From Streptomyces dioscori (GTDB lineage Bacteria; Actinomycetota; Actinomycetes; Streptomycetales; Streptomycetaceae), in NCBI RefSeq assembly GCF_003024195.1, contig NZ_KZ679039.1:722285-786284 (forward strand): a stretch of 64,000 nt of DNA. The letters run 5' to 3'. This document shows positions 39,767 through 49,095 of this stretch, one piece after another. Position numbers and translations under genes: made by a program. The notes under the pieces are model-generated. The model had not been told where the DNA came from. It made no database searches and worked only from the letters and a program-made list of their open reading frames with translations. The stretch's first letter is position 1; every line of letters starts with the position of its first letter.

Positions 39767-39794
39767 TGTGACGTTCCGGCCACCGTGCACGCAG
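39767..39794 (+). promoter_or_regulatory. Putative ECF-type promoter motif, copy 1
   Basis: TGTGACGTT (39767-39775), 13 bases, then ACGCAG (39789-39794). It ends 52 bp before the ATG at 39847. Identical elements and spacing occur at 44126 and 47959. The 17-bp distance from GTGAC to CGCAG fits an ECF -35/-10 pair. Confidence 0.6.
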
Positions 39795-39846
39795 TAAGGG
39801 GAAGTGCGGGCTCCGCGACCAGCGGCGGCCCACCGAGGGAGGCGTG

Positions 39847-40437
39847 ATGAGCCTGGTGGAACTGACCGCTCGGGCCGACGAGCTGGGTCTCGCGGCCGGC
39901 GGTCTGGCGTGCCTGGACAGGTGCGTGCCCCTGTTGGGCGGCGACGACGAGATCCTGCGCCCCCTGTGGGCGAGTCTCGCGGAGTCCGAGGAGGGGTTCC
40001 GGGACTGGGGCGAGTGCGTCGAGCAGGTGCGCGCCAAGCTCTATGTGGCGGACGGCCCGGAGAGCCCCGCGTCGGCCGAGGGCGAGGCCGTCGCGCTGGC
40101 GCACCGCATGCTCGGTGAGGCCCCGGCGGAGCGGACCGCCGCGAACCTGCGGGAGTGGGCCGACGCCTGCTCGGTCGCCGCGCTCCGGATCCACGGCCTC
40201 CTCGACGCCACGGCCCGTGCCGAGTCCGACGGCGCGGCCTCGGCGCGCGACCGCCGCGAGGGCCGTACGCAGGACATGTCGCCGCTCGTCGCCGCCGAAC
40301 TGCGCCGCCAGATCAGCGTGCTGGAACTGGTGTCGGCGCACGGCCCAGGGGGTCTGCGGCAGGCGCGCGAACTCACCACCGAGGGCCGCCGCGTCCTGCG
40401 CGCGGTGGTCTCCCGACGGGCCCGCGGACGCGCCTGA
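39847..40437 (+). CDS. Hypothetical helical protein, about 196 aa, behind the ECF-type motif
   Basis: A soluble, almost entirely helical protein (MSLVELTARADELGLAAGGL, WGECVEQVRAKLYVA, VAAELRRQISVLELV). I recognise no family. GGGAGG at 39837-39842 precedes the ATG; a GTG three bases earlier is less well placed. It carries the TGTGACGTT-N13-ACGCAG motif just upstream, so it may belong to the regulon of one of the ECF factors encoded 4-6 kb further on (inference). Confidence 0.72.
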   Translation: MSLVELTARADELGLAAGGLACLDRCVPLLGGDDEILRPLWASLAESEEGFRDWGECVEQVRAKLYVADGPESPASAEGEAVALAHRMLGEAPAERTAANLREWADACSVAALRIHGLLDATARAESDGAASARDRREGRTQDMSPLVAAELRRQISVLELVSAHGPGGLRQARELTTEGRRVLRAVVSRRARGRA

Positions 40438-40490
40438 GCACCCGCGGGCCCGAACCCGCACACGCCCCCCGTACACGCCCCCGTACACAT

Positions 40491-40527
40491 GAGGCCGGGA
40501 CCCTGTTCCGTACAGGGTCCCGGCCTC
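40491..40527. terminator. Strong hairpin terminator between convergent genes
   Basis: A perfect 16-bp stem (40491-40506 with 40512-40527, loop TCCGT) lies between the helical protein gene (ends 40437) and the amidase gene (ends 40548). It can act on both strands. Confidence 0.88.
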
Positions 40528-40547
40528 GTGCGCATACCGCGTGCTGT

Positions 40548-43328
40548 CTACGGGGTCAGGACCTGGCCCAGTCGCGTGGCCGTCGCCGTGCCCAGCTGGG
40601 TGACGCCGTAGTACGCCGACTTGGCGACGGAGACGCCCGACGCCGTGCTCGGGAGGTACAACAGCGTGCCGTTGTACGCGTCCTCGCCCTCCGCGCCGAT
40701 CAGCAGGTGCGCGCGGCCGTGGCCGGAGAAGTCCGTCAGCGAGACGGCCGAACCCAGCTTGTCGTCCTTCTCCGTGGACCCGGGGACACCCGTGGTGTCC
40801 TGCGAGAAGGAGAGCGACCCGGTGCCGGTGAGGCCGGCCGAGGCGCCCTTGAAGAGCCAGACCGCGCCCGCGTTCGCCTTGTTGGCTCCGCTGCGGGTGA
40901 TGTCCTCGTTCGGGGCGCCGGTCAGGACGTCCGCGAAACCGTCGGCGTTGAAGTCGCCCACGGAGACCGAGGTGCCCATCGCGTCACCGGACTCGTTGGC
41001 GCCCTCGACGCCCGCCGTGCTCTGCGTGATCTTCGTCAGCCCGGTGGTGGTGAAACCGGTCGTCGTGCCCGGGACCATCGTGACCTGGCCGCCGGAGATC
41101 GCGCCGGACTCGGAGGCGTACGGCTGGCCGATGACGATGTCGTCGTAGCCGTTGCCGTTCACGTCGCCCGCGGCGATCGAGCGGCCGCCCTTGACGGAGA
41201 GCGTGGACACCTTCGACAGGCCCAGCGACTTGGACCCCTTGAACCAGGTGACCTTGCCGGCGCCGGACGCGTCGCGGTAGTTGAGCGCCACGTCCGCGTA
41301 GCCGTCCCGGTTGAAGTCACCGGTCGTGGCGTCCGCGTACGCGAGGGCGCCGGAGGCGGTGGTGAGATCGCCGGCGACCTCGTGGCCGTCGTCGAAGCGG
41401 GCCGCCCAGTTGCCGCCCGTGCCGGTGGCCGCCGTGAAGACGTCGGCCCGGCCGTCGGCGTTGAAGTCGCCGACCGCGACCGTCGCGCCGAACCGCGCCC
41501 CGGCCGGCTCGTAGTCGTCGCCCAGCGCCATGGTGTCCGCGCCGAGGTCGAACTTCGGGCCGTACAGGATCGTCACCGCGCCGCGGTCCGCGTGGCCGGT
41601 CGTGTCGTCCTCGCCGGGGGCGCCGATCGCGATGTCCGCGTACCCGTCGCCGTTGATGTCGCCGAGGGCCGTGGCCGCGCCCCACTGGTCGCCCGACTCG
41701 GCGGCGCCCGGCACGTTGGCGGTGCCCTGGTTGAGCTTCACCTTCGAGGCGGAGACGGGGCCGTTCAGACCGCCGGGCACCAGGGTGAGCCAGCCGCTGC
41801 CCTGCTTGGGCGTGGCGGCGACGAGGTCGCTGATGCCGTCACCGTTGAAGTCGGCGGTCGGGACCGCGGAGTTCCTACCGGGGCTCGATGCGTACCGGCG
41901 GATCTCGCTCAGCTTCGAGTAAAGGTTTTTGCCGGGGCACTCGGTGGCGAAGCCGTCGCGGTGACCGGAGATCGTGTTCAGCGTGGCCTGCTGGCCCGCC
42001 TTCCACACACCCGTGTCGTCGGCGGCGGTCAGGGTGACCTGGCCGCTCGGGTTGCCGTCGTACTGGCCGAGCTTCCACGCGGCGACGCGCGCCACGGACT
42101 CCAGGGCGGCCCGCGTCGGCTTGCCCGCGGCCTTCGCCGCGGTGGTGGAGGTGGCCGCGGCACCCTCGAAGTCACCGAGGACCGCGATGCCCGCCGAGTC
42201 GCCGTTGAAGCCGTAGGTGTGCGCGCCGCGCACCGGCAGGTCGACGCCGCCCGCGCGGCCCTCGAAGATCCGGCCGCACTTGTCGACCAGGAAGTTGTAG
42301 CCGATGTCGTTCCACAGCTCGGTCTGCACGTGGTACGCCATGATGCCGCGCACCAGCGCGGGGGACTCGGCGCAGCTGTAGTCGTTCGTACCGACCGTGT
42401 GGTGGACGAAGACCGCGCTGACCTTGTCGATGTACTCCGGCGGGTCCTTGACCGTCGACTCGGCGGCACCCCACTGGGCGCGGGAGACGATCGGCGGCTG
42501 CGTCACGGTGGACGGCGGCGGGGACGGGACCGGGTCGGGCGTCGGGGAGGCCGACGCGCTCTCCGACGCACTCCCGGAGGCGCTTTCGGACGTGCTTTCG
42601 GCAGGTGACGCGGGAGCGCCGGCCGTGTCGGCCGCACCCGTGGGCTCCGCGCCCGCCGAATCCGCCGGGGACACGGACGCCGAGGCGGCGTCGGACGGGG
42701 AGCCGGTCGGATCCTCGGCGACGAAGGCGGCGCTGTCCAACGAGAGACCGGTGGCTGTGCTCAGAGCCTCGTTCTTCGCCTCGGCCGAGGTCACCCCAGG
42801 GTCCACGAGACTCAGCTCAAGTCCCTTGGGCAGCCCGGAACTCGCCGACCCCCCAGCCGCGACCACCCGCGCCTCGACGCCGTCGCTCGGGCCGACCCAC
42901 AGCGGATCGGACGCGCCGCGCGCCTCCTTGGCGCCCGGTTCCGCCTTGTCGACGGGGTGGAATTCCAGGTCCAGGTTCTGCCAGCCGGTCCACTCGCCCG
43001 AGCCGAGCGCGCGCGTCCGTACCTGGGCGGTGCCGTCGAGTTCGGCCTTCGCGCCGGCCCAGGAGATGCCGAGCAGCGAGAACTGGGCGGTGCCCGTCCG
43101 CTCCACCTCGCGGCGGTCCGTGCCGTCACTGCTCATCGCGAGCTCGTGGACCTTCACGGGCCGCTTGCTGCGCGCGGCGTCGGCCGACGGGTCGTCACCC
43201 GGGTTCGCGACCGCGTACGTCACGGCGCCCGCCCCGGCCAGTACGACGGCCCCCGTCGTCAGCCACGCTCTCCGCTTCAGACTCAGCGGTTTGTACGCAT
43301 GGGTCGTCCGGCGACTCAAATACCCCAC
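40548..43328 (-). CDS. Secreted PGRP-type N-acetylmuramoyl-L-alanine amidase with FG-GAP repeats
   Basis: About 926 aa. After an N-terminal signal-like helix (LKRRAWLTTGAVVLAGAGAVTYAV) come a variable domain, a Ser/Ala/Pro linker (about 215-265) and the PGRP amidase domain (about 278-470): VSRAQWGA, AVFVHHTVG, GRIFEGRAGG, GAHTYGFN and SGHRDGFATECPGK, with the His/His/Cys zinc ligands. The last 440 residues hold seven FG-GAP/VCBS repeats (DFNGDGISDL, DINGDGYADI, DFNADGRADV and so on) with Ca-binding Asp patterns, probably for wall binding. GTG at 43328 has no Shine-Dalgarno of its own; TTG at 43319 is an alternative. A short leader ORF ends two bases upstream. Confidence 0.88.
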   Translation of the reverse strand: MGYLSRRTTHAYKPLSLKRRAWLTTGAVVLAGAGAVTYAVANPGDDPSADAARSKRPVKVHELAMSSDGTDRREVERTGTAQFSLLGISWAGAKAELDGTAQVRTRALGSGEWTGWQNLDLEFHPVDKAEPGAKEARGASDPLWVGPSDGVEARVVAAGGSASSGLPKGLELSLVDPGVTSAEAKNEALSTATGLSLDSAAFVAEDPTGSPSDAASASVSPADSAGAEPTGAADTAGAPASPAESTSESASGSASESASASPTPDPVPSPPPSTVTQPPIVSRAQWGAAESTVKDPPEYIDKVSAVFVHHTVGTNDYSCAESPALVRGIMAYHVQTELWNDIGYNFLVDKCGRIFEGRAGGVDLPVRGAHTYGFNGDSAGIAVLGDFEGAAATSTTAAKAAGKPTRAALESVARVAAWKLGQYDGNPSGQVTLTAADDTGVWKAGQQATLNTISGHRDGFATECPGKNLYSKLSEIRRYASSPGRNSAVPTADFNGDGISDLVAATPKQGSGWLTLVPGGLNGPVSASKVKLNQGTANVPGAAESGDQWGAATALGDINGDGYADIAIGAPGEDDTTGHADRGAVTILYGPKFDLGADTMALGDDYEPAGARFGATVAVGDFNADGRADVFTAATGTGGNWAARFDDGHEVAGDLTTASGALAYADATTGDFNRDGYADVALNYRDASGAGKVTWFKGSKSLGLSKVSTLSVKGGRSIAAGDVNGNGYDDIVIGQPYASESGAISGGQVTMVPGTTTGFTTTGLTKITQSTAGVEGANESGDAMGTSVSVGDFNADGFADVLTGAPNEDITRSGANKANAGAVWLFKGASAGLTGTGSLSFSQDTTGVPGSTEKDDKLGSAVSLTDFSGHGRAHLLIGAEGEDAYNGTLLYLPSTASGVSVAKSAYYGVTQLGTATATRLGQVLTP

Positions 43329-43330
43329 CC

Positions 43331-43363
43331 CTAGAAAAGCAGCACAAAAAACCCACCCGTCAC
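43331..43363 (-). CDS. Possible 10-residue leader peptide ahead of the amidase
   Basis: A GTG at 43363 follows an ideal AAGGAG with nine-base spacing and encodes MTGGFFVLLF before TAG. Two bases after the stop comes the amidase GTG at 43328. Coupled translation would supply the ribosomes the amidase start otherwise lacks. Alternatively, a -1 slip or miscalled length in the TTTTTT run would fuse this start to the amidase frame. Confidence 0.35.
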   Translation of the reverse strand: MTGGFFVLLF

Positions 43364-43371
43364 AAGGGTGG
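43346..43371 (-). promoter_or_regulatory. Attenuator-like hairpin with T-run in the amidase leader
   Basis: On the - strand CCACCC and GGGTGG pair across a 7-base loop, immediately followed by GTTTTTTG. This is a compact Rho-independent terminator shape, unusual in so GC-rich a genome, and placed 18 bp before the amidase start. The loop contains the GTG of the leader ORF, so ribosome movement could control folding. Confidence 0.5.
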
Positions 43372-43611
43372 CTCCTTAATTCAGCGCCAACTTCGGACCA
43401 AACATCACCCAACAAGCCTGTGCGGTACGTCACTCCGGAGCGGGTTCGACGCTTGGGGAGAGTGGATGGTTGTGCCGATTCCGGTGAATTGCCGCGTGAC
43501 CTTTGTCACCATGGGGATGTGTGATGTTCGGGGCGCCCGGCTCGCTTGATGGTGCGGACCGGCCGTGGCTCGCGCGGCCCGGACGTGACCGACTGAGGGG
43601 GCGCAGGCGTG

Positions 43612-44130
43612 ATGGGGACGAGCGCGGAGTCGGGAGAGCCCTCGCGAGTGACCCGCAGGCTCTCGGCCGACCTGCGGATGCGGCAGCACGCGGCACGGTT
43701 CGTACGGGACGTCACGGCCCGCAACCGACTGCCGCTGGACTACTCCGTCGCGAGCCTGCGCGTCGTCGACTTCATCGTCGACGGGCTGCGCAGGAGCGGC
43801 CGGGACCACGCGGCCGTGGGCCGGGTGCTGTTCGGGCTCGGGGTGTACGCGGGAGAGGTGCTGGTGCGGCGGGCCGGTGCCGCGTGGGTCGAGTTCGACC
43901 AGGGGCAGCGGGAGTTGTTCGGCCAGCCGGTGGGCGTACGGATGCCGGACGGGCGCGTGTGGAATCCGCTGGGCAAGGTCGTGAAGCGGTTCGAGGCGGG
44001 GGAACGGGAGTCCCTGCGCACGTTCTATCTGCAGTTGCACGGGCGGGAGCGGGCCGGGCCGCCCGGGTCGCCGGGGCTGCCGCGGCGGTCCGGGTGTGCG
44101 GAGGCGGGCGGCGCGACCGACGAGCTGTGA
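43612..44130 (+). CDS. Hypothetical protein upstream of the ECF module
   Basis: 172 aa, basic, soluble and alpha/beta. It starts MGTSAESGEPSRVTRRLSADLRMRQHAARFV, with a central VGRVLFGLGVYAGEVLVRRAGAAWVEF and MPDGRVWNPLGKVVKRFEAG. I recognise no family. GAGGGGG lies upstream of ATG 43612 (a GTG at 43609 is an alternative). Directly upstream, GTGAC-CTTT-GTCAC (43496-43509) is a small inverted repeat. The 126-bp gap to the sigma factor contains an ECF-type motif starting at the stop codon of this gene. Confidence 0.7.
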   Translation: MGTSAESGEPSRVTRRLSADLRMRQHAARFVRDVTARNRLPLDYSVASLRVVDFIVDGLRRSGRDHAAVGRVLFGLGVYAGEVLVRRAGAAWVEFDQGQRELFGQPVGVRMPDGRVWNPLGKVVKRFEAGERESLRTFYLQLHGRERAGPPGSPGLPRRSGCAEAGGATDEL

Positions 44131-44153
44131 CGTTTCCGCGCCGCCAGACGCAG
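44126..44153 (+). promoter_or_regulatory. Putative ECF-type promoter motif, copy 2
   Basis: TGTGACGTT (44126-44134), 13 bases, ACGCAG (44148-44153), 104 bp before the sigma factor start at 44257. It overlaps the stop codon of the upstream gene. It would fit autoregulation of the first ECF sigma factor. Confidence 0.6.
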
Positions 44154-44184
44154 ATGACCTTGAGGGTGTGTGACCGCATACGGC

Positions 44185-44247
44185 CACGGTGGTCCGTCAC
44201 GGAGACGCGTCACGGATCTCCGTCACGGTGGTCCGTCACGGTGGTCC
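44185..44247. repeat. Short direct repeats in the sigma-factor leader
   Basis: CACGGTGGTCCGTCACGG occurs at 44185-44202 and 44224-44241, with a further ACGGTGGTCC at 44238-44247. They lie between the ECF-type motif and the sigma factor start, where they could bind a regulator or fold as RNA. Confidence 0.75.
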
Positions 44248-44256
44248 GAACCCGGT

Positions 44257-44889
44257 GTGAACGAGGCAGTGTTGGTCCAGGGAGGGGGGTCCCGCCGCGT
44301 GCGGTCGTCCGACGGGGAGCTGGGCCTGGCCGTCGCGCGGGCACAGCAGGGGGACGAGGACGCCTTCGCGGTCGCGTACCGGATCGTGCAGCCCGGACTG
44401 CTCGGGTATCTGCGGGGCCTGGTCGGCGCGGAGGCGGAGGACGTGGCCTCGGACGCGTGGCTGGAGATCGCCCGTGATCTGGGGCGGTTCCGCGGGGACG
44501 GGGCGGGGTTCCGCGGCTGGACCGCGACCATCGCGAGGCACCGGGCGCTCGATCACCTGCGCCGGCAGAAGGTACGGCCGCGGGCGTCCGCACTCGAACA
44601 GGACGTGCTCGACCTGCCCGCCGCCCGGAGCACGGACGACCAGGCACTGGAGTCCCTCGGCACGCAGTACGCCCTGGAACTCCTCGCCACCCTGCCGCGC
44701 GACCAGGCCGAGGCCGTGCTGCTGCGGGTCGTCGTCGGGCTCGACGGTCCGGCGGCCGGGCGGGTACTCGGCAAACGCCCCGGCGCGGTACGCACCGCCG
44801 CGCACCGGGGTCTGAAGCGGCTGGCCCGCCGCCTCGACGCCGAGGGTGTGACGGAAGACGGGCCCCGGACGCTGGGGGAGTCGGGATGA
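44257..44889 (+). CDS. ECF RNA polymerase sigma factor, module 1
   Basis: 210 aa from GTG at 44257; earlier in-frame starts run through direct repeats. Region 2 is GDEDAFAVAYRIVQPGLLGYL through DVASDAWLEIARDLGRFRGD and GFRGWTATIARHRALDHLRRQ. Region 4 is LATLPRDQAEAVLLRVVVGLDGPAAGRVLGKRPGAVRTAAHRGLKRL. It is strongly similar to the sigma factor at 45978, especially in region 4. The next gene encodes a single-pass membrane protein that may be its anti-sigma factor. Confidence 0.92.
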   Translation: MNEAVLVQGGGSRRVRSSDGELGLAVARAQQGDEDAFAVAYRIVQPGLLGYLRGLVGAEAEDVASDAWLEIARDLGRFRGDGAGFRGWTATIARHRALDHLRRQKVRPRASALEQDVLDLPAARSTDDQALESLGTQYALELLATLPRDQAEAVLLRVVVGLDGPAAGRVLGKRPGAVRTAAHRGLKRLARRLDAEGVTEDGPRTLGESG

Positions 44890-44916
44890 ACGGCAGACAG
44901 CCCTCCGGCGGCGGAA

Positions 44917-45663
44917 GTGGATGCGGACATGGGTGAACGAGAGGGCGACAGCACCCGCCCGGACCTCGGTGCCCTGCTCGCCGCCGCCGTAAGGGGCGGG
45001 GAAACGGACCCCGATGCGCGGAAGCGGGCCCTCGCCGCGTTCCGGGACGCCCGGGACGAGGGGGCGCACACGGCGGCCCGTACCCGGCGGCGGGACGACT
45101 GGCGGCCCGCGGGCGAGCGGCGGGCCTGGTCGCTGCGGGCGACGCTGGTCGCGCTGGCGGCGAGCGTGACGCTCGGCGGGGTGGCCGTCGCGGCCATCGG
45201 CTCGGGCGCGGTCGGACGGGACGACGGGGGCGAGCGGGACAGGCCCCGGCGGCCGTCGAGCAGTTCACCGGCCGACCCCGGCGGCCCTGCCGGTGTCGGC
45301 ACGCCCGGCGCGTCCGGGCTCGACCGGCTTTCCACCGCCCAGGACACCGAGTCCCACTGCCGCGCGTACGACTCCGGCAAGAAGCGGGGCAAGGGCCTCG
45401 ACCCGACCGCCTGGCAACTGCTGGTCCGGGCCGCGGGCGGCGAGGACGAGGTGGACGCGTACTGCGCGGCGCGGTCGGCCGAAGCGAAGAAAAAGAAGAA
45501 CGCCAAGAGCGCCAAGGCGACAGAGAAGGCCGAGAAGGCCGAGGCGAAGGAATCAGCCAAATCGTCGAAGGCGTCGGGCAGCGGTGTCACGAAAAGCCCG
45601 AAGGCCGCAAAGAGCGCGAAAAGCACGAAGAGTGAGAAGAACAAGAAGGGCGGGAGCGGTTGA
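44917..45663 (+). CDS. Single-pass membrane protein with Lys/Ala-rich tail, candidate anti-sigma partner 1
   Basis: 248 aa. N-terminal cytoplasmic part of about 70 residues with ALAAFRDAR (38-46), a helix at about 73-97 (SLRATLVALAASVTLGGVAVAA), then an outer part with two Cys about 35 residues apart (SHCRAYDSG and DAYCAARSAE) and a highly basic tail of KSAK and KAEKAE repeats. The same order is found in the protein at 46667. There is no HxxxCxxC zinc anti-sigma motif. The start may be GTG 44917 or ATG 44929. The anti-sigma role is inferred only from position and topology. Confidence 0.75.
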   Translation: MDADMGEREGDSTRPDLGALLAAAVRGGETDPDARKRALAAFRDARDEGAHTAARTRRRDDWRPAGERRAWSLRATLVALAASVTLGGVAVAAIGSGAVGRDDGGERDRPRRPSSSSPADPGGPAGVGTPGASGLDRLSTAQDTESHCRAYDSGKKRGKGLDPTAWQLLVRAAGGEDEVDAYCAARSAEAKKKKNAKSAKATEKAEKAEAKESAKSSKASGSGVTKSPKAAKSAKSTKSEKNKKGGSG

Positions 45664-45977
45664 CGGGGAGGGACGCCGGCTCCGCCGATGGCAACGGCCG
45701 GGGCCGCCACCCCCCACAGGAGAGGCCCCGGCCGTCGCGCGGCACGGGCCGCGCGGCGGCCCGTACTCTCCTCAGCGCCGCCGGTGCGTTTTGTGTCACA
45801 CCCCACGCCGCAACGAGTTGGTTGCATGTTGTACGGACATGGACGCGCCCCGGTTTCAAGCCGTAACGTGCATTTCGCGCCGGATGCGGGGCAGGACCGC
45901 AACCATCGACCGAGAGACCACGACGGAGATGACCCGGCCCGCGGGAGCGGCGTCGGCTGGGCGCAATAAGGGGCGCG
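45664..45977. other. 314-bp gap before the second ECF sigma gene
   Basis: No supported gene. A weak relative of the ECF-type motif, CGTAACGTG and then ATGCGG with the same spacing, occurs at 45862-45889, about 90 bp before the sigma start. AAGGGG at 45968-45973 is the ribosome binding site of the next gene. Confidence 0.4.
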
Positions 45978-46667
45978 GTGCTGGGGGACGACGCGGAGCT
46001 GACCGCCGCGGTGCTTGCCGCACAGTACGGGGACGAGACCGCGTTCCGTACTGTGTACCGAGCCGTGCATCCACGGCTCCTGGGGTACGTGCGCACGCTG
46101 GTCGGCGACCCGGACGCCGAGGACGTGACGTCCGAGGCCTGGCTCCAGATCGCCCGCGACCTCGAACGGTTCAGCGGCGACGCCGACCGGTTCCGCGGCT
46201 GGGCCGCCCGGATAGCCCGCAACCGCGCACTCGACCACATACGCATGCGCGGGCGGCGCCCCGCGATAGGCGGCGACGAGAGCGAACTGACCGGCAGGGC
46301 GGCCGAGTCCGACACCGCGGGTGAGGCCATCGAAGCGCTCGCCACGGGCCGCACCCTCTCCCTCATCGCCCAGCTCCCGCAGGACCAGGCGGAGGCCGTC
46401 GTACTGCGTGTCGTCGTCGGCCTCGACGCCAAGACCGCCGCGGACACCCTGGGCAAACGGCCCGGCGCCGTCCGCACGGCGGCGCACCGCGGACTCAAAC
46501 GCCTCGCGGAACTGCTCGGCACGGACCCGGAGGCGGCTGCTCCGGAATCCGTGGGCTCCCTGGCCTCGGTACCCCAGCAGAGACCCCCGCACACGGAGCC
46601 GCGTACCCGTGCGGTCACGTCGGCCGGTGTGACGCATACGCCTTCGCGTACGCAGAAGGACATGTGA
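45978..46667 (+). CDS. ECF RNA polymerase sigma factor, module 2
   Basis: 229 aa from GTG at 45978 with AAGGGG just upstream. Region 2: YGDETAFRTVYRAVHPRLLGYV, DVTSEAWLQIARDLERFSGD, RFRGWAARIARNRALDHIRM. Region 4: IAQLPQDQAEAVVLRVVVGLDAKTAADTLGKRPGAVRTAAHRGLKRLAELL. It is a paralogue of the sigma factor at 44257 with an extra Pro/Thr-rich C-terminal tail. Its stop overlaps the start of the membrane partner gene, indicating translational coupling. Confidence 0.93.
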   Translation: MLGDDAELTAAVLAAQYGDETAFRTVYRAVHPRLLGYVRTLVGDPDAEDVTSEAWLQIARDLERFSGDADRFRGWAARIARNRALDHIRMRGRRPAIGGDESELTGRAAESDTAGEAIEALATGRTLSLIAQLPQDQAEAVVLRVVVGLDAKTAADTLGKRPGAVRTAAHRGLKRLAELLGTDPEAAAPESVGSLASVPQQRPPHTEPRTRAVTSAGVTHTPSRTQKDM

Positions 46668-47992
46668 TGGCCGACGAGCGCTCTGTCTTCCCGGGGGACG
46701 ATCCCACGCCCCCCGGCCGGTGGCTGGACCGCGACGCGGCGGAACGGCTGCTGCGCGGAGAACCGCTCGAAGCCGTCGACGCCGACATCCGCGCCCAGGC
46801 CGACCGTCTCGCCGAGGCACTCGACGAACTGCGCACGTCCGCCGCCGGGTTCGCACCGACCGGTGCCACCGGAGTTGCTGGAGCCGCCGGAGCTGCAAGT
46901 GCCGCCGGTGCCGCCGGTGAACGTGGCGCCGAACTCCCGGGTGAGGAAGCCGCGTTGGCCGCCTTCCGCTCGGCGCGCTCCGGCCGGAGCGCGGAGACGG
47001 CCCTCGCCGGACCCTCCCGTAGGCGTTCCCCGGCGTCCTTCCCGTCGACGCCATCCGCCACCTCCGCCACCTCCGCCACCTCCTCCTCACCCTTCTCGCC
47101 TTCCTCGTCCCTGGGGGCCTCCCTGGACGCCGGCCTCGTCCGGCTGGGCCGTTTCACCCCGGACGACCGCGCCCGCTCCCCGTGGAGCCGCCCGGTGCGC
47201 TACGGCCTCGCCGCCGCGCTGGCCGCCGGGATGATCGGCGGGGTCGCCGTGGCCGCCACCGCCGGTGTCCTGGCCTTCGGCGGGGGCGGACCGGAACCGG
47301 GCGCCTCCGCGACGGCCGACGTCACGCAGGACCGCCCGCTGCGCACACCGTCCCCCGAGGCGACCCGGCGCGGCGACGACCCGCGGCCCGAGGGCAGCGC
47401 CGGCGCACCGACCGGCGGGGACTCCGCCCCGAGCGGCGAGGCACCCGGGGGTACGGGTACGGGCGCGCGGCCCGACTCCGACGACACCGGGCGCGAGAGC
47501 CGGCAGGGTCAGCGGTGGGCCAGGATCGCCTCGGCCTGCCGTGACATCCGCGACGGCAAGGACCTCGACGCCGGGCGCAGACGCACCCTGGAGGACGCGG
47601 CCCGGGGCGCCGAGCAGGTGCAGAAGTACTGCAGGGGCGTCCTGAGGACCTGGAACCACCGCGACTCCGACGACGACTGGAACGACCCCGGTTCCGGGTA
47701 CTCCGATCCGGACAAGGGTGACGACGGCAAGGGTGACAACGGCTTCGGCGGCGGCAAGGGTGACGACCGCGGCGGCGACGACAACGGCTTCGGCGGCGGC
47801 CACGGTGACGGCAAGGGCGACGGCGGTGGCCCTGACGGTGACGACCGCGGCCACATGAACACGAGCACGAGCACGAACACGAACACGAACACGAGCACGT
47901 TCCGCAGTGACGAGGGCAAGGCGTCCCCGGCCCGGTCCGCGCGCGTGTGGCGTCCTGGTGTGACGTTTTCAGCCGCCCCGACGCAGTACTAA
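46667..47992 (+). CDS. Single-pass membrane protein with Gly/Asp-rich tail, candidate anti-sigma partner 2
   Basis: 441 aa from ATG 46667 (AAGGA six bases upstream). The cytoplasmic part holds RWLDRDAAERLLRGEPLEAVD and ALAAFRSAR, the latter nearly identical to the partner-1 motif. One helix near 182-205 (LAAALAAGMIGGVAVAATAGVLAF) leads to an outer domain with ASACRDIRDGKDLDAGRRRT and VQKYCRGVL, again two Cys about 35 residues apart, then a Gly/Asp/Lys repeat tail and a Thr/Asn repeat. The architecture matches the protein at 44917, so the two sigma/partner pairs look like one ancient duplication. Confidence 0.78.
   Translation: MADERSVFPGDDPTPPGRWLDRDAAERLLRGEPLEAVDADIRAQADRLAEALDELRTSAAGFAPTGATGVAGAAGAASAAGAAGERGAELPGEEAALAAFRSARSGRSAETALAGPSRRRSPASFPSTPSATSATSATSSSPFSPSSSLGASLDAGLVRLGRFTPDDRARSPWSRPVRYGLAAALAAGMIGGVAVAATAGVLAFGGGGPEPGASATADVTQDRPLRTPSPEATRRGDDPRPEGSAGAPTGGDSAPSGEAPGGTGTGARPDSDDTGRESRQGQRWARIASACRDIRDGKDLDAGRRRTLEDAARGAEQVQKYCRGVLRTWNHRDSDDDWNDPGSGYSDPDKGDDGKGDNGFGGGKGDDRGGDDNGFGGGHGDGKGDGGGPDGDDRGHMNTSTSTNTNTNTSTFRSDEGKASPARSARVWRPGVTFSAAPTQY
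47959..47986 (+). promoter_or_regulatory. Putative ECF-type promoter motif, copy 3
   Basis: TGTGACGTT (47959-47967), 13 bases, ACGCAG (47981-47986), inside the last codons of the partner-2 gene. No + strand gene follows until 49096. A transcript starting here would run antisense into the L,D-transpeptidase gene that ends at 48128. Confidence 0.5.
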
Positions 47993-48127
47993 GCGAGCCG
48001 ACTGGTCATCGGCTGGCGCACGAGCCGGGGTTCCCCCCGTACTCACGGCTCAGTGCACACAAGGCGCGGGCGGGACACGTTCCCCCGGTCCCGCCCGCGC
48101 CCGCACACCTTCTCCGCCGCCCGGCGC

Positions 48128-48976
48128 TCACCAGTAGACGACGACCTTGTCGCCGTCCCTCACCTGCGCGAACAGCGCGGCGATCTTTCCTTCGTCCCGT
48201 ACGTTCACGCAGCCGTGCGAGCCGCCGTAGTAACCCGTCCCCGCGAAGTCCGCGGAGTAGTGGACCGCCTGGCCGCCGCTGAAGAACATCGCGTACGGCA
48301 TGGGTGAGTCGTAGATCGTCGACACATGGTGGCGCGACTTGAAGTAGACGTCGAAGACACCTTCGCGGGTGGGCGTGTACTCCGTGCCGAAGCGCACCGC
48401 CATCGTCGAGACCGTCCGGCCGTCGATCATCCAGCGCAGGGTGCGGCTGGTCTTGCTGATGCACAGCACCCGGCCCGTCAGACAGCGCGGATCCGGTTGC
48501 GCGGCCGGCTGGCCGCCCGACGCGTACAGGTCCCACTTGCCCGGCTCGCGGGTCATCCCCAGCAGCCGCTGCCAGGTCGCCGAGTCCGTGGTGCCGGTCT
48601 TCGGCAGGCCGCGCTTGCCCTGGAAACCCTTGACCGCGTAGACCGTCGAGGCGTCGTACGTGCCCGTGGGCCCCTCGTAGAGCCACAGCACCTGGCGCAG
48701 CCGGGCCTGCAACTCCCGTACGTCCATGCCCCGGTCGCCCGGTGACCACAGGACCTTGGGCGCGGGCTGCCCGGCGGAACTCGGCGGCTTGGCGTCACCG
48801 GGGGAGCGGCGGGCCGGTGACGGGGCGGCTGCGGACGACGACCCTCCGACGGACGGCGAACCGTCCGGTGACGTGCCCGGCGGGCCCGCCGGCTGGATCG
48901 TGCACCCGCTCACCACGGTGAGCGCCGCCAGCGCCGTCGCCGCCACACCTGATCTCCACACACCTGTTGTACGCAT
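48128..48976 (-). CDS. L,D-transpeptidase lipoprotein with peptidoglycan-binding domain
   Basis: 282 aa from ATG 48976 (GGGGGG upstream). The lipobox VVSGCTIQ ends the signal peptide. A Ser/Pro linker is followed by a PG_binding_1 domain (GMDVRELQARLRQVLWLYEGPTGTYD, VKGFQGKRGLPKTG). The YkuD domain has YYGGSHGCVNVRDEGKIAALF with the catalytic Cys256 and its His. It makes 3-3 cross-links or attaches proteins to peptidoglycan at the outer face of the membrane. Confidence 0.93.
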   Translation of the reverse strand: MRTTGVWRSGVAATALAALTVVSGCTIQPAGPPGTSPDGSPSVGGSSSAAAPSPARRSPGDAKPPSSAGQPAPKVLWSPGDRGMDVRELQARLRQVLWLYEGPTGTYDASTVYAVKGFQGKRGLPKTGTTDSATWQRLLGMTREPGKWDLYASGGQPAAQPDPRCLTGRVLCISKTSRTLRWMIDGRTVSTMAVRFGTEYTPTREGVFDVYFKSRHHVSTIYDSPMPYAMFFSGGQAVHYSADFAGTGYYGGSHGCVNVRDEGKIAALFAQVRDGDKVVVYW

Positions 48977-49095
48977 TTGAACCCCCCGCCGCTCATCGAT
49001 CCGGTCATCGATGTGCCGTGGTGACATCCGAGCGGCCGTCTCGTCCCGCAGAACTCCATCCTGCGCTGTCATACCCGGATGCGACACTGCCTCTC

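Follow-up and report, generated by a model that had tools for sequence, protein, structure and literature searches.

Streptomycetes encode dozens of extracytoplasmic function (ECF) sigma factors, many of which are without a known promoter. We have analyzed a locus of Streptomyces dioscori that carries two such factors, here termed sig1 and sig2, in a stretch of 64,000 nucleotides (contig NZ_KZ679039.1, positions 722,285 to 786,284; the whole stretch is called the window, and its own numbering is used below). Five copies of a bipartite motif, sites a, b, e, c and d, cluster in 8 kb of the window, all on the plus strand, as are the genes unless stated otherwise. Site a (39767..39794) is an exact copy, TGTGACGTT-N13-ACGCAG, and the predicted ECF promoter of hel197 (39847..40437), which encodes an all-helical protein of about 196 amino acids. 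Site b (44126..44153), also exact, overlaps the stop codon of the preceding gene and is the predicted ECF promoter of sig1 (44254..44889, with an uncertain start; the open reading frame (ORF) opens at 44170). Site e (44847..44874) reads TGTGACGGA-N13-ACGCTG, lies in the 3' end of sig1 and is the predicted promoter of tm1 (44929..45663, predicted start), a membrane protein with a single transmembrane (TM) segment and the putative anti-sigma factor of sig1. Downstream of tm1 an upstream element of a different kind (45822..45869) precedes sig2 (45978..46667). Site c (46628..46655), TGTGACGCA-N13-ACGCAG, is located at the 3' end inside sig2 and 11 nt upstream of the ATG of tm2 (46667..47992), which according to its alignment (A2), the AlphaFold model of an orthologue and hydropathy is again a single-TM membrane protein and the putative anti-sigma factor of sig2. 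Site d (47959..47986), the third exact copy, is the predicted ECF promoter of a small RNA (sRNA) of about 112 nt (47992..48103, predicted ends). The 3' border is formed by a convergent L,D-transpeptidase gene with YkuD and PG_binding_1 domains (48128..49087, minus strand), orthologues of which occur in many of the related loci fetched for comparison.

The three exact copies with their positions and strand had been reported in an initial annotation of this DNA, and these hold; two further sites had escaped it, the good copy at 46628 and the variant at 44847 that ends in ACGCTG. It had also called for a search of the complete genome. In the 10,239,468 bases the exact motif occurs three times, always within the window, and the scan, which allowed up to 2 mismatches, returned 18 matches of which 3 had none, compared to 7 for the reversed-pattern control. 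When the two T residues are dropped, TGTGACG-N15-ACGCAG matches four times, again all in the window (39767, 44126, 46628 and 47959), while the shorter TGTGAC-N17-CGCAG has at least 10 matches in the same genome, 6 of those counted lying besides the motif sites. For comparison the sig2 protein was searched in 61 genomes, 37 of the same genus and 24 others, and was matched in 37/37 same-genus genomes. In these 37 genomes the N15 form has 53 matches out of 171 for all spacings from N5 to N25, the other 20 spacings sharing 118 (mean 5.9 each). Chance is a poor explanation of the motif because 53 matches at N15 stand against 5.9 per other spacing. Forty-five of the 53 fall inside the regions fetched around sig2, and these all follow the direction of the genes, with 0 reversed. 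The neighboring spacing N16 alone is matched in 5 of the 61 genomes.

The regions around sig2 were fetched by sig2 homology and not by the motif. They comprise 37 regions from 36 same-genus relatives (one genome contributes two contigs) and were scanned together with the window's own region, which gave the five site classes. Site c was anchored on the downstream ribosome-binding and start sequence, again leaving the motif unused. Anchoring was possible in 34/37 genomes; in the other three (G008, G028 and G010) the sequence ends or becomes N after sig2. The site is identical at all 13 fixed bases in 33 of the 34, with an A to G change in the -10 of the remaining one, and relatedness inflates these counts, although neighboring codons vary in the same genomes. 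Although the residue before GTG varies among Gly, Ser, Thr and Arg, its codon has T as the last base in every case, and both this base and the third codon positions are invariant in 34/34. In the codon background of the sig2 body, NNT endings have a frequency of 0.047, GTG of 0.476, ACG (used twice in site c) of 0.309 and CAG of 0.934. Since synonymous positions are fixed against this background, selection at site c acts on the DNA and not on the protein. The predicted transcription start at site c lies at or beside the start codon of tm2, and for that reason a leaderless tm2 mRNA is possible. Upstream of hel197, site a is kept before 14/14 orthologues whose start is covered (11 from one scan and three further upstream; a 15th, in G022, is cut), and the earlier suggestion that this helical protein belongs to the regulon is thereby supported, as far as comparison of sequences can do so. 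Site e is kept with at most 1 mismatch in 13/16 regions that bear sig1, with ACGCTG as -10, and site b precedes sig1 with at most 2 mismatches in 9/16, so that one copy probably does serve a sigma gene. With its fixed spacing, its place at a sigma locus and its conservation before orthologues the motif can be read, as had been proposed, as an ECF-type promoter. Its parts are likely a -35 of GTRAC and a -10 of RCGCWG, 16 nt apart.

The exact copy at 47959 precedes no protein gene on its own strand, the next gene being convergent. It is likely the promoter of a small RNA, which the initial annotation had not seen. Relative to the tm2 stop, site d lies wholly after it in 26 of 33 placeable genomes, overlaps it in five and is inside the gene in two (the window and G035). 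About 10 nt after its -10 a stretch of around 112 nt begins that is conserved far beyond its surroundings: among 35 same-genus copies the identity per column is 0.29-0.63 upstream of the promoter versus 1.00 in hairpin 1. Three hairpins are predicted, with the loops CTGGTCA, TTCCCCCC and TTCCCCC, of which the second and third are C-rich; the third hairpin has a strong terminator-like stem. A model built from alignment A1 (34 of the 35 copies, G029 left out) gives one match per genome in 36/37 same-genus genomes and 0/24 of the others. The only 17-base hairpin match outside the genus (G058) was taken as chance, with neither the motif nor the remaining RNA around it. In 150 sampled genomes of the family the RNA was found in 78, namely 38 same-genus and 40 other-genus genomes, covering 7/17 sampled genera. 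Alignment A4 combines 9 of the 34 sequences of A1 with 35 divergent copies, a selection that draws on 4 same-genus genomes and on 26 of the 40 matched genomes outside the genus. Across its 44 sequences the CTGGTCA loop is kept in 43, compensatory changes on both sides are seen in 15/23 pairs, and pairing holds in 97.5% of cells as compared to 85.5% in shuffles and at most 45.4% with the partner slid. The hairpins are separated by segments with insertions or deletions of one or two bases, which argues against a protein.

The promoter pattern accompanies this RNA. GTRACR-N(14-17)-RCGC-N-K stands before 35/35 same-genus copies and 32/35 divergent copies, together 67/70, whereas random windows of the same loci match in 751/70,000; the RNA of G018 lies on another contig and is not among the copies read. 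All 67 patterns use N15 and end 3-6 nt before the start of the RNA model. A sig2 homologue is encoded upstream of 31/35 divergent copies, two of the others being on a contig that is too short and two having none in view (G163). The tandem RNA copies in G080, G162 and G200 each carry the promoter pattern. Duplications of promoter and sRNA side by side were noted at loci of other genera (L297, L308 and L309, two copies each), and the two extra RNA copies of G163 (L306 and L307) have their own promoter pattern with no sig2 homologue in view. The predicted transcript combines a covarying conserved structure, a promoter pattern in front and a terminator-like end, as would a regulatory sRNA. Comparison of 47700-48400 with Rfam, at E values up to 10, gave seven weak rows, all far below the cut-offs and none of them 6C. 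The predicted structured small RNA is deeply conserved and not in Rfam, and it appears to represent an unnamed family that occurs in several genera of the bacterial family.

Both sigma proteins score above the cut-offs of PF04542 and PF08281 (Sigma70_r2 and r4_2, covering sigma regions 2 and 4), and the relatives of sig2 with solved structures are sigma factors of the ECF type. In the NCBIfam search the best matches of sig1 and sig2 (ShbA, BldN family) were far below the cut-offs. A weak fourth copy of the motif had been placed before sig2 at 45862-45889. This assignment falls, as GTRACR-N15-RCGCWG occurs in 0/37 of the 170-nt stretches upstream of sig2. What overlaps this position is the upstream element mentioned above, which consists of a TTGCATGTTGTAC box and TGGACG-N18-TAACGT. 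The form TGGACG-N17/18-TARCGT is present in 26/37 of these stretches and presumably represents a housekeeping, HrdB-type promoter, which it resembles; a TTGCA-TTGTAC box, found in 14/37, often stands above it. Box and promoter-like element look like the operator of some regulator. The expectation that orthologous sigma genes would be preceded by the motif is thus borne out for sig1 (9/16) and fails for sig2 (0/37), which has another promoter-like element. Classic autoregulation is consequently absent for the likelier of the two sigma factors. Nineteen of the 37 same-genus genomes have a single sig2 match at E 1e-30 and hence no sig1 match (in G017 the lack may be due to truncation, with tm1 at the contig end), and 16 of these 19 keep site c, the other three being those that could not be anchored. 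For this reason sig2 alone probably suffices and is the likely reader. We therefore narrow the view that one or both ECF factors use the motif: its ECF promoter nature is supported by comparison, but sig2, which lacks a copy of its own, is likely the main reader and is the more conserved sigma factor, with sig1 probably reading the motif too.

The tm1 and tm2 genes directly follow their sigma genes, and each protein has one strongly hydrophobic segment by hydropathy. We infer a role as anti-sigma factors from this position next to a sigma gene together with the topology. The AlphaFold model of a tm2 orthologue (mean pLDDT 62.1) places three helices at the N-terminus, and its confidently predicted helical domain, which is probably extracytoplasmic, holds two invariant cysteines. 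In tm1 a Cys...YC stretch similar to that of tm2 is readable, and the BLASTP similarity between both proteins is not significant.

Taken together, we consider it quite probable that the motif copies are promoters of a self-contained ECF circuit that is read mainly by sig2 and has the predicted sRNA as an output. Other readings of the same data have to be weighed. A conventional transcription factor that binds one face of the DNA would also fit a bipartite site with fixed spacing, and the absence of the motif before sig2 would agree with such a binding site in place of a sigma promoter. Against it, the motif is oriented toward the downstream unit in all five sites, keeps its narrow distance to the RNA model start in all 67 strict-pattern copies, has half-sites that are not palindromic and tracks an ECF sigma gene; we regard this reading as improbable. 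Still less probable, to a degree that makes it hardly credible, is a conservation of the motif as coding sequence for a C-terminal peptide V-T-x5-T-Q/L of sig1, sig2 and tm2. Copies c, e and d are indeed in frame with the genes that they end in the window (V-T-H/E/F...T-Q/L), but copies a and b are out of frame with the preceding gene and site d is wholly beyond the tm2 stop in most genomes. As an explanation of the in-frame copies the peptide was rejected on the wobble positions, which at site c are fixed against the codon background, as is the base before GTG.

The sites could instead be read by sig1 or by a third sigma factor encoded elsewhere. Sig1 has copy b, and it may have its own preference, as the ACGCTG variants of the -10 at b and e suggest, whereas the genomes without a sig1 match mostly retain site c and the divergent RNA copies mostly have a sig2 homologue upstream. 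We judge this unlikely, if somewhat less so than a transcription factor site. At the distal end, the convergent genes are separated by the strong stem of the third hairpin, which is near-palindromic and resembles a terminator, and the 3' structure could be a mere bidirectional terminator shared by tm2 and the transpeptidase gene, with site d driving a short meaningless transcript. A terminator of this sort does not account for the loop of hairpin 1 and the C-rich loop of hairpin 2, which are kept while the stems change compensatorily across genera, nor for the drop in identity upstream of the promoter or for tandem copies that repeat the promoter plus hairpins; its probability is about as small as that of the transcription factor site.

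Several observations weigh against the sig2-driven circuit. The sigma factor in question has no motif in the 170 nt upstream of its gene in any of the 37 genomes, tm1 and tm2 match no known anti-sigma family in the Pfam and NCBIfam searches, and a Foldseek search with the tm2 model gave nothing significant. At the mismatch limits used, site b is missing in 7/16 and site e in 3/16 sig1-bearing regions. One hel197 orthologue on a motif-fetched contig (L090) is without a site in the 110 nt examined, and no more distant regulon member was identified. For the RNA, the model search found no copy in the fragmented genome G008, 72/150 genomes of the family have no match to the model, at least 20 of them in other genera, and 3/35 divergent copies have a changed -10, with the spacing kept.

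Under the circuit favored here, sig2 would be made from the housekeeping-type promoter and held at the membrane by tm2. A cell-envelope signal, perhaps perceived via the cysteine-bearing external domain of tm2, would release sig2. Free sig2 would then raise sig1, tm1 and tm2, which would provide feedback, as well as the sRNA, and hel197 would also be switched on by the circuit. The C-rich loops of the sRNA might base-pair with G-rich stretches at ribosome-binding sites or starts, the conserved GGGGGA at the start of sig2 possibly being one of them. This start (45978-45989, GTGCTGGGGGAC) is complementary to the C-rich loops. It is identical at the nucleotide level in 26/37 genomes, with GGGGA in 36/37, and its GGG glycine codon is uncommon (GGG makes up 17% of Gly codons). 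Among 127 ORF starts of the window ranked by predicted duplexes, sig2 is 12th for the second and 9th for the third loop, hel197 is 5th for the third loop, tm2 ranks 95 and 116, and for the first loop sig2 ranks an unremarkable 64; as the background includes the starts of spurious ORFs, these ranks are suggestive only. In other genera the GGGGGA box is not seen in one fixed place. With more doubt than confidence we offer the idea that the family-wide sRNA is a dedicated RNA arm of sig2, in which sig2 makes tm2 and the sRNA, and the sRNA shuts off sig2 via the GGGGGA box. If this were true, a single sigma factor would be under double restraint, from a protein and from an RNA whose genes are neighbors. 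Were an sRNA part of an ECF sigma/anti-sigma locus, envelope sensing would be connected with post-transcriptional control. Comparative sequence analysis predicts a promoter, local targets and a structured RNA for an ECF sigma factor that is common to the 37/37 same-genus genomes searched.

Pairs of ECF sigma factors and membrane anti-sigma factors are known in actinobacteria, for example SigE, SigM and BldN/RsbN. The locus resembles these pairs in that the gene after a sigma gene encodes a single-TM protein, predicted here to have its N-terminus in the cytoplasm and an external domain, and in the bipartite promoter of fixed spacing with copies at the locus itself. However, neither of the partner proteins matches a Pfam or NCBIfam model, and the motif is located at the putative anti-sigma genes and the sRNA rather than at the main sigma gene. 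The combination of an envelope-stress ECF sigma factor with an sRNA arm recalls enterobacterial sigma-E and its dependent sRNAs MicA, RybB and MicL, a likeness of working only, with no sequence relation. The genes of these sRNAs are unlinked to the sigma gene, while the sRNA predicted here is part of the sigma locus.

Actinobacterial 6C RNA has hairpins with C-rich loops, according to its definition as quoted in PMC8388888, a feature shared by our predicted, likewise actinobacterial sRNA. Identity with 6C RNA (RF01066) was ruled out, as the scan of 47700-48400 has no row for this family at E values up to 10; this genome carries its 6C RNA elsewhere (contig C7, 410673-410749; 58.1 bits, over the cut-off). 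The predicted sRNA further differs from it by three hairpins, the CTGGTCA loop and the ECF-type promoter pattern. In S. coelicolor, PMC3896431 describes scr4677 as a conserved intergenic sRNA beside an anti-sigma factor gene. It is antisense and close to the start of SCO4676, and it co-localizes with SCO4677 only about 30% of the time; no cognate sigma gene clusters with SCO4677 itself, which is linked to SigF (PMC3896431). The sRNA predicted here also adjoins a putative anti-sigma gene, but in contrast to scr4677 it is accompanied in most loci by both the promoter pattern and the ECF gene. Dozens of conserved and mostly unnamed intergenic regions are described in PMC11678152, and the predicted sRNA could be among them.

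In the literature searched, which did not cover supplements, no description of the promoter, the regulon or the RNA was found, and of five core strings of the sRNA one matched, in a single unrelated human paper. The presumed S. coelicolor orthologues are SCO4864 and SCO4866. The names scr4866, scr4867, scr4868, SCO4868 and SCO4870 were not found in the same literature. SCO4864 and SCO4866 are mentioned by name in PMC2631018 and PMC4367926; the main text of PMC3765725 contains neither the terms for these genes nor 'sigma factor', and the terms sought in PMC4681348 are likewise absent from it.

Some minor features of the locus may be added. The Foldseek search with hel197 gave no match at E 0.001, and in a second-look search DUF416 stood as one row well above the others, which for helical bundles is no proof. 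The leader directly after site a (39795-39815, TAAGGGGAAGTGCGGGCTCCG) is closely similar among close orthologues, and its GGGGAA could pair with the UUCCCC of the predicted sRNA. Between site b and the start of sig1, at 44185-44250, the window contains repeated units that resemble GGTCCGTCACGG.

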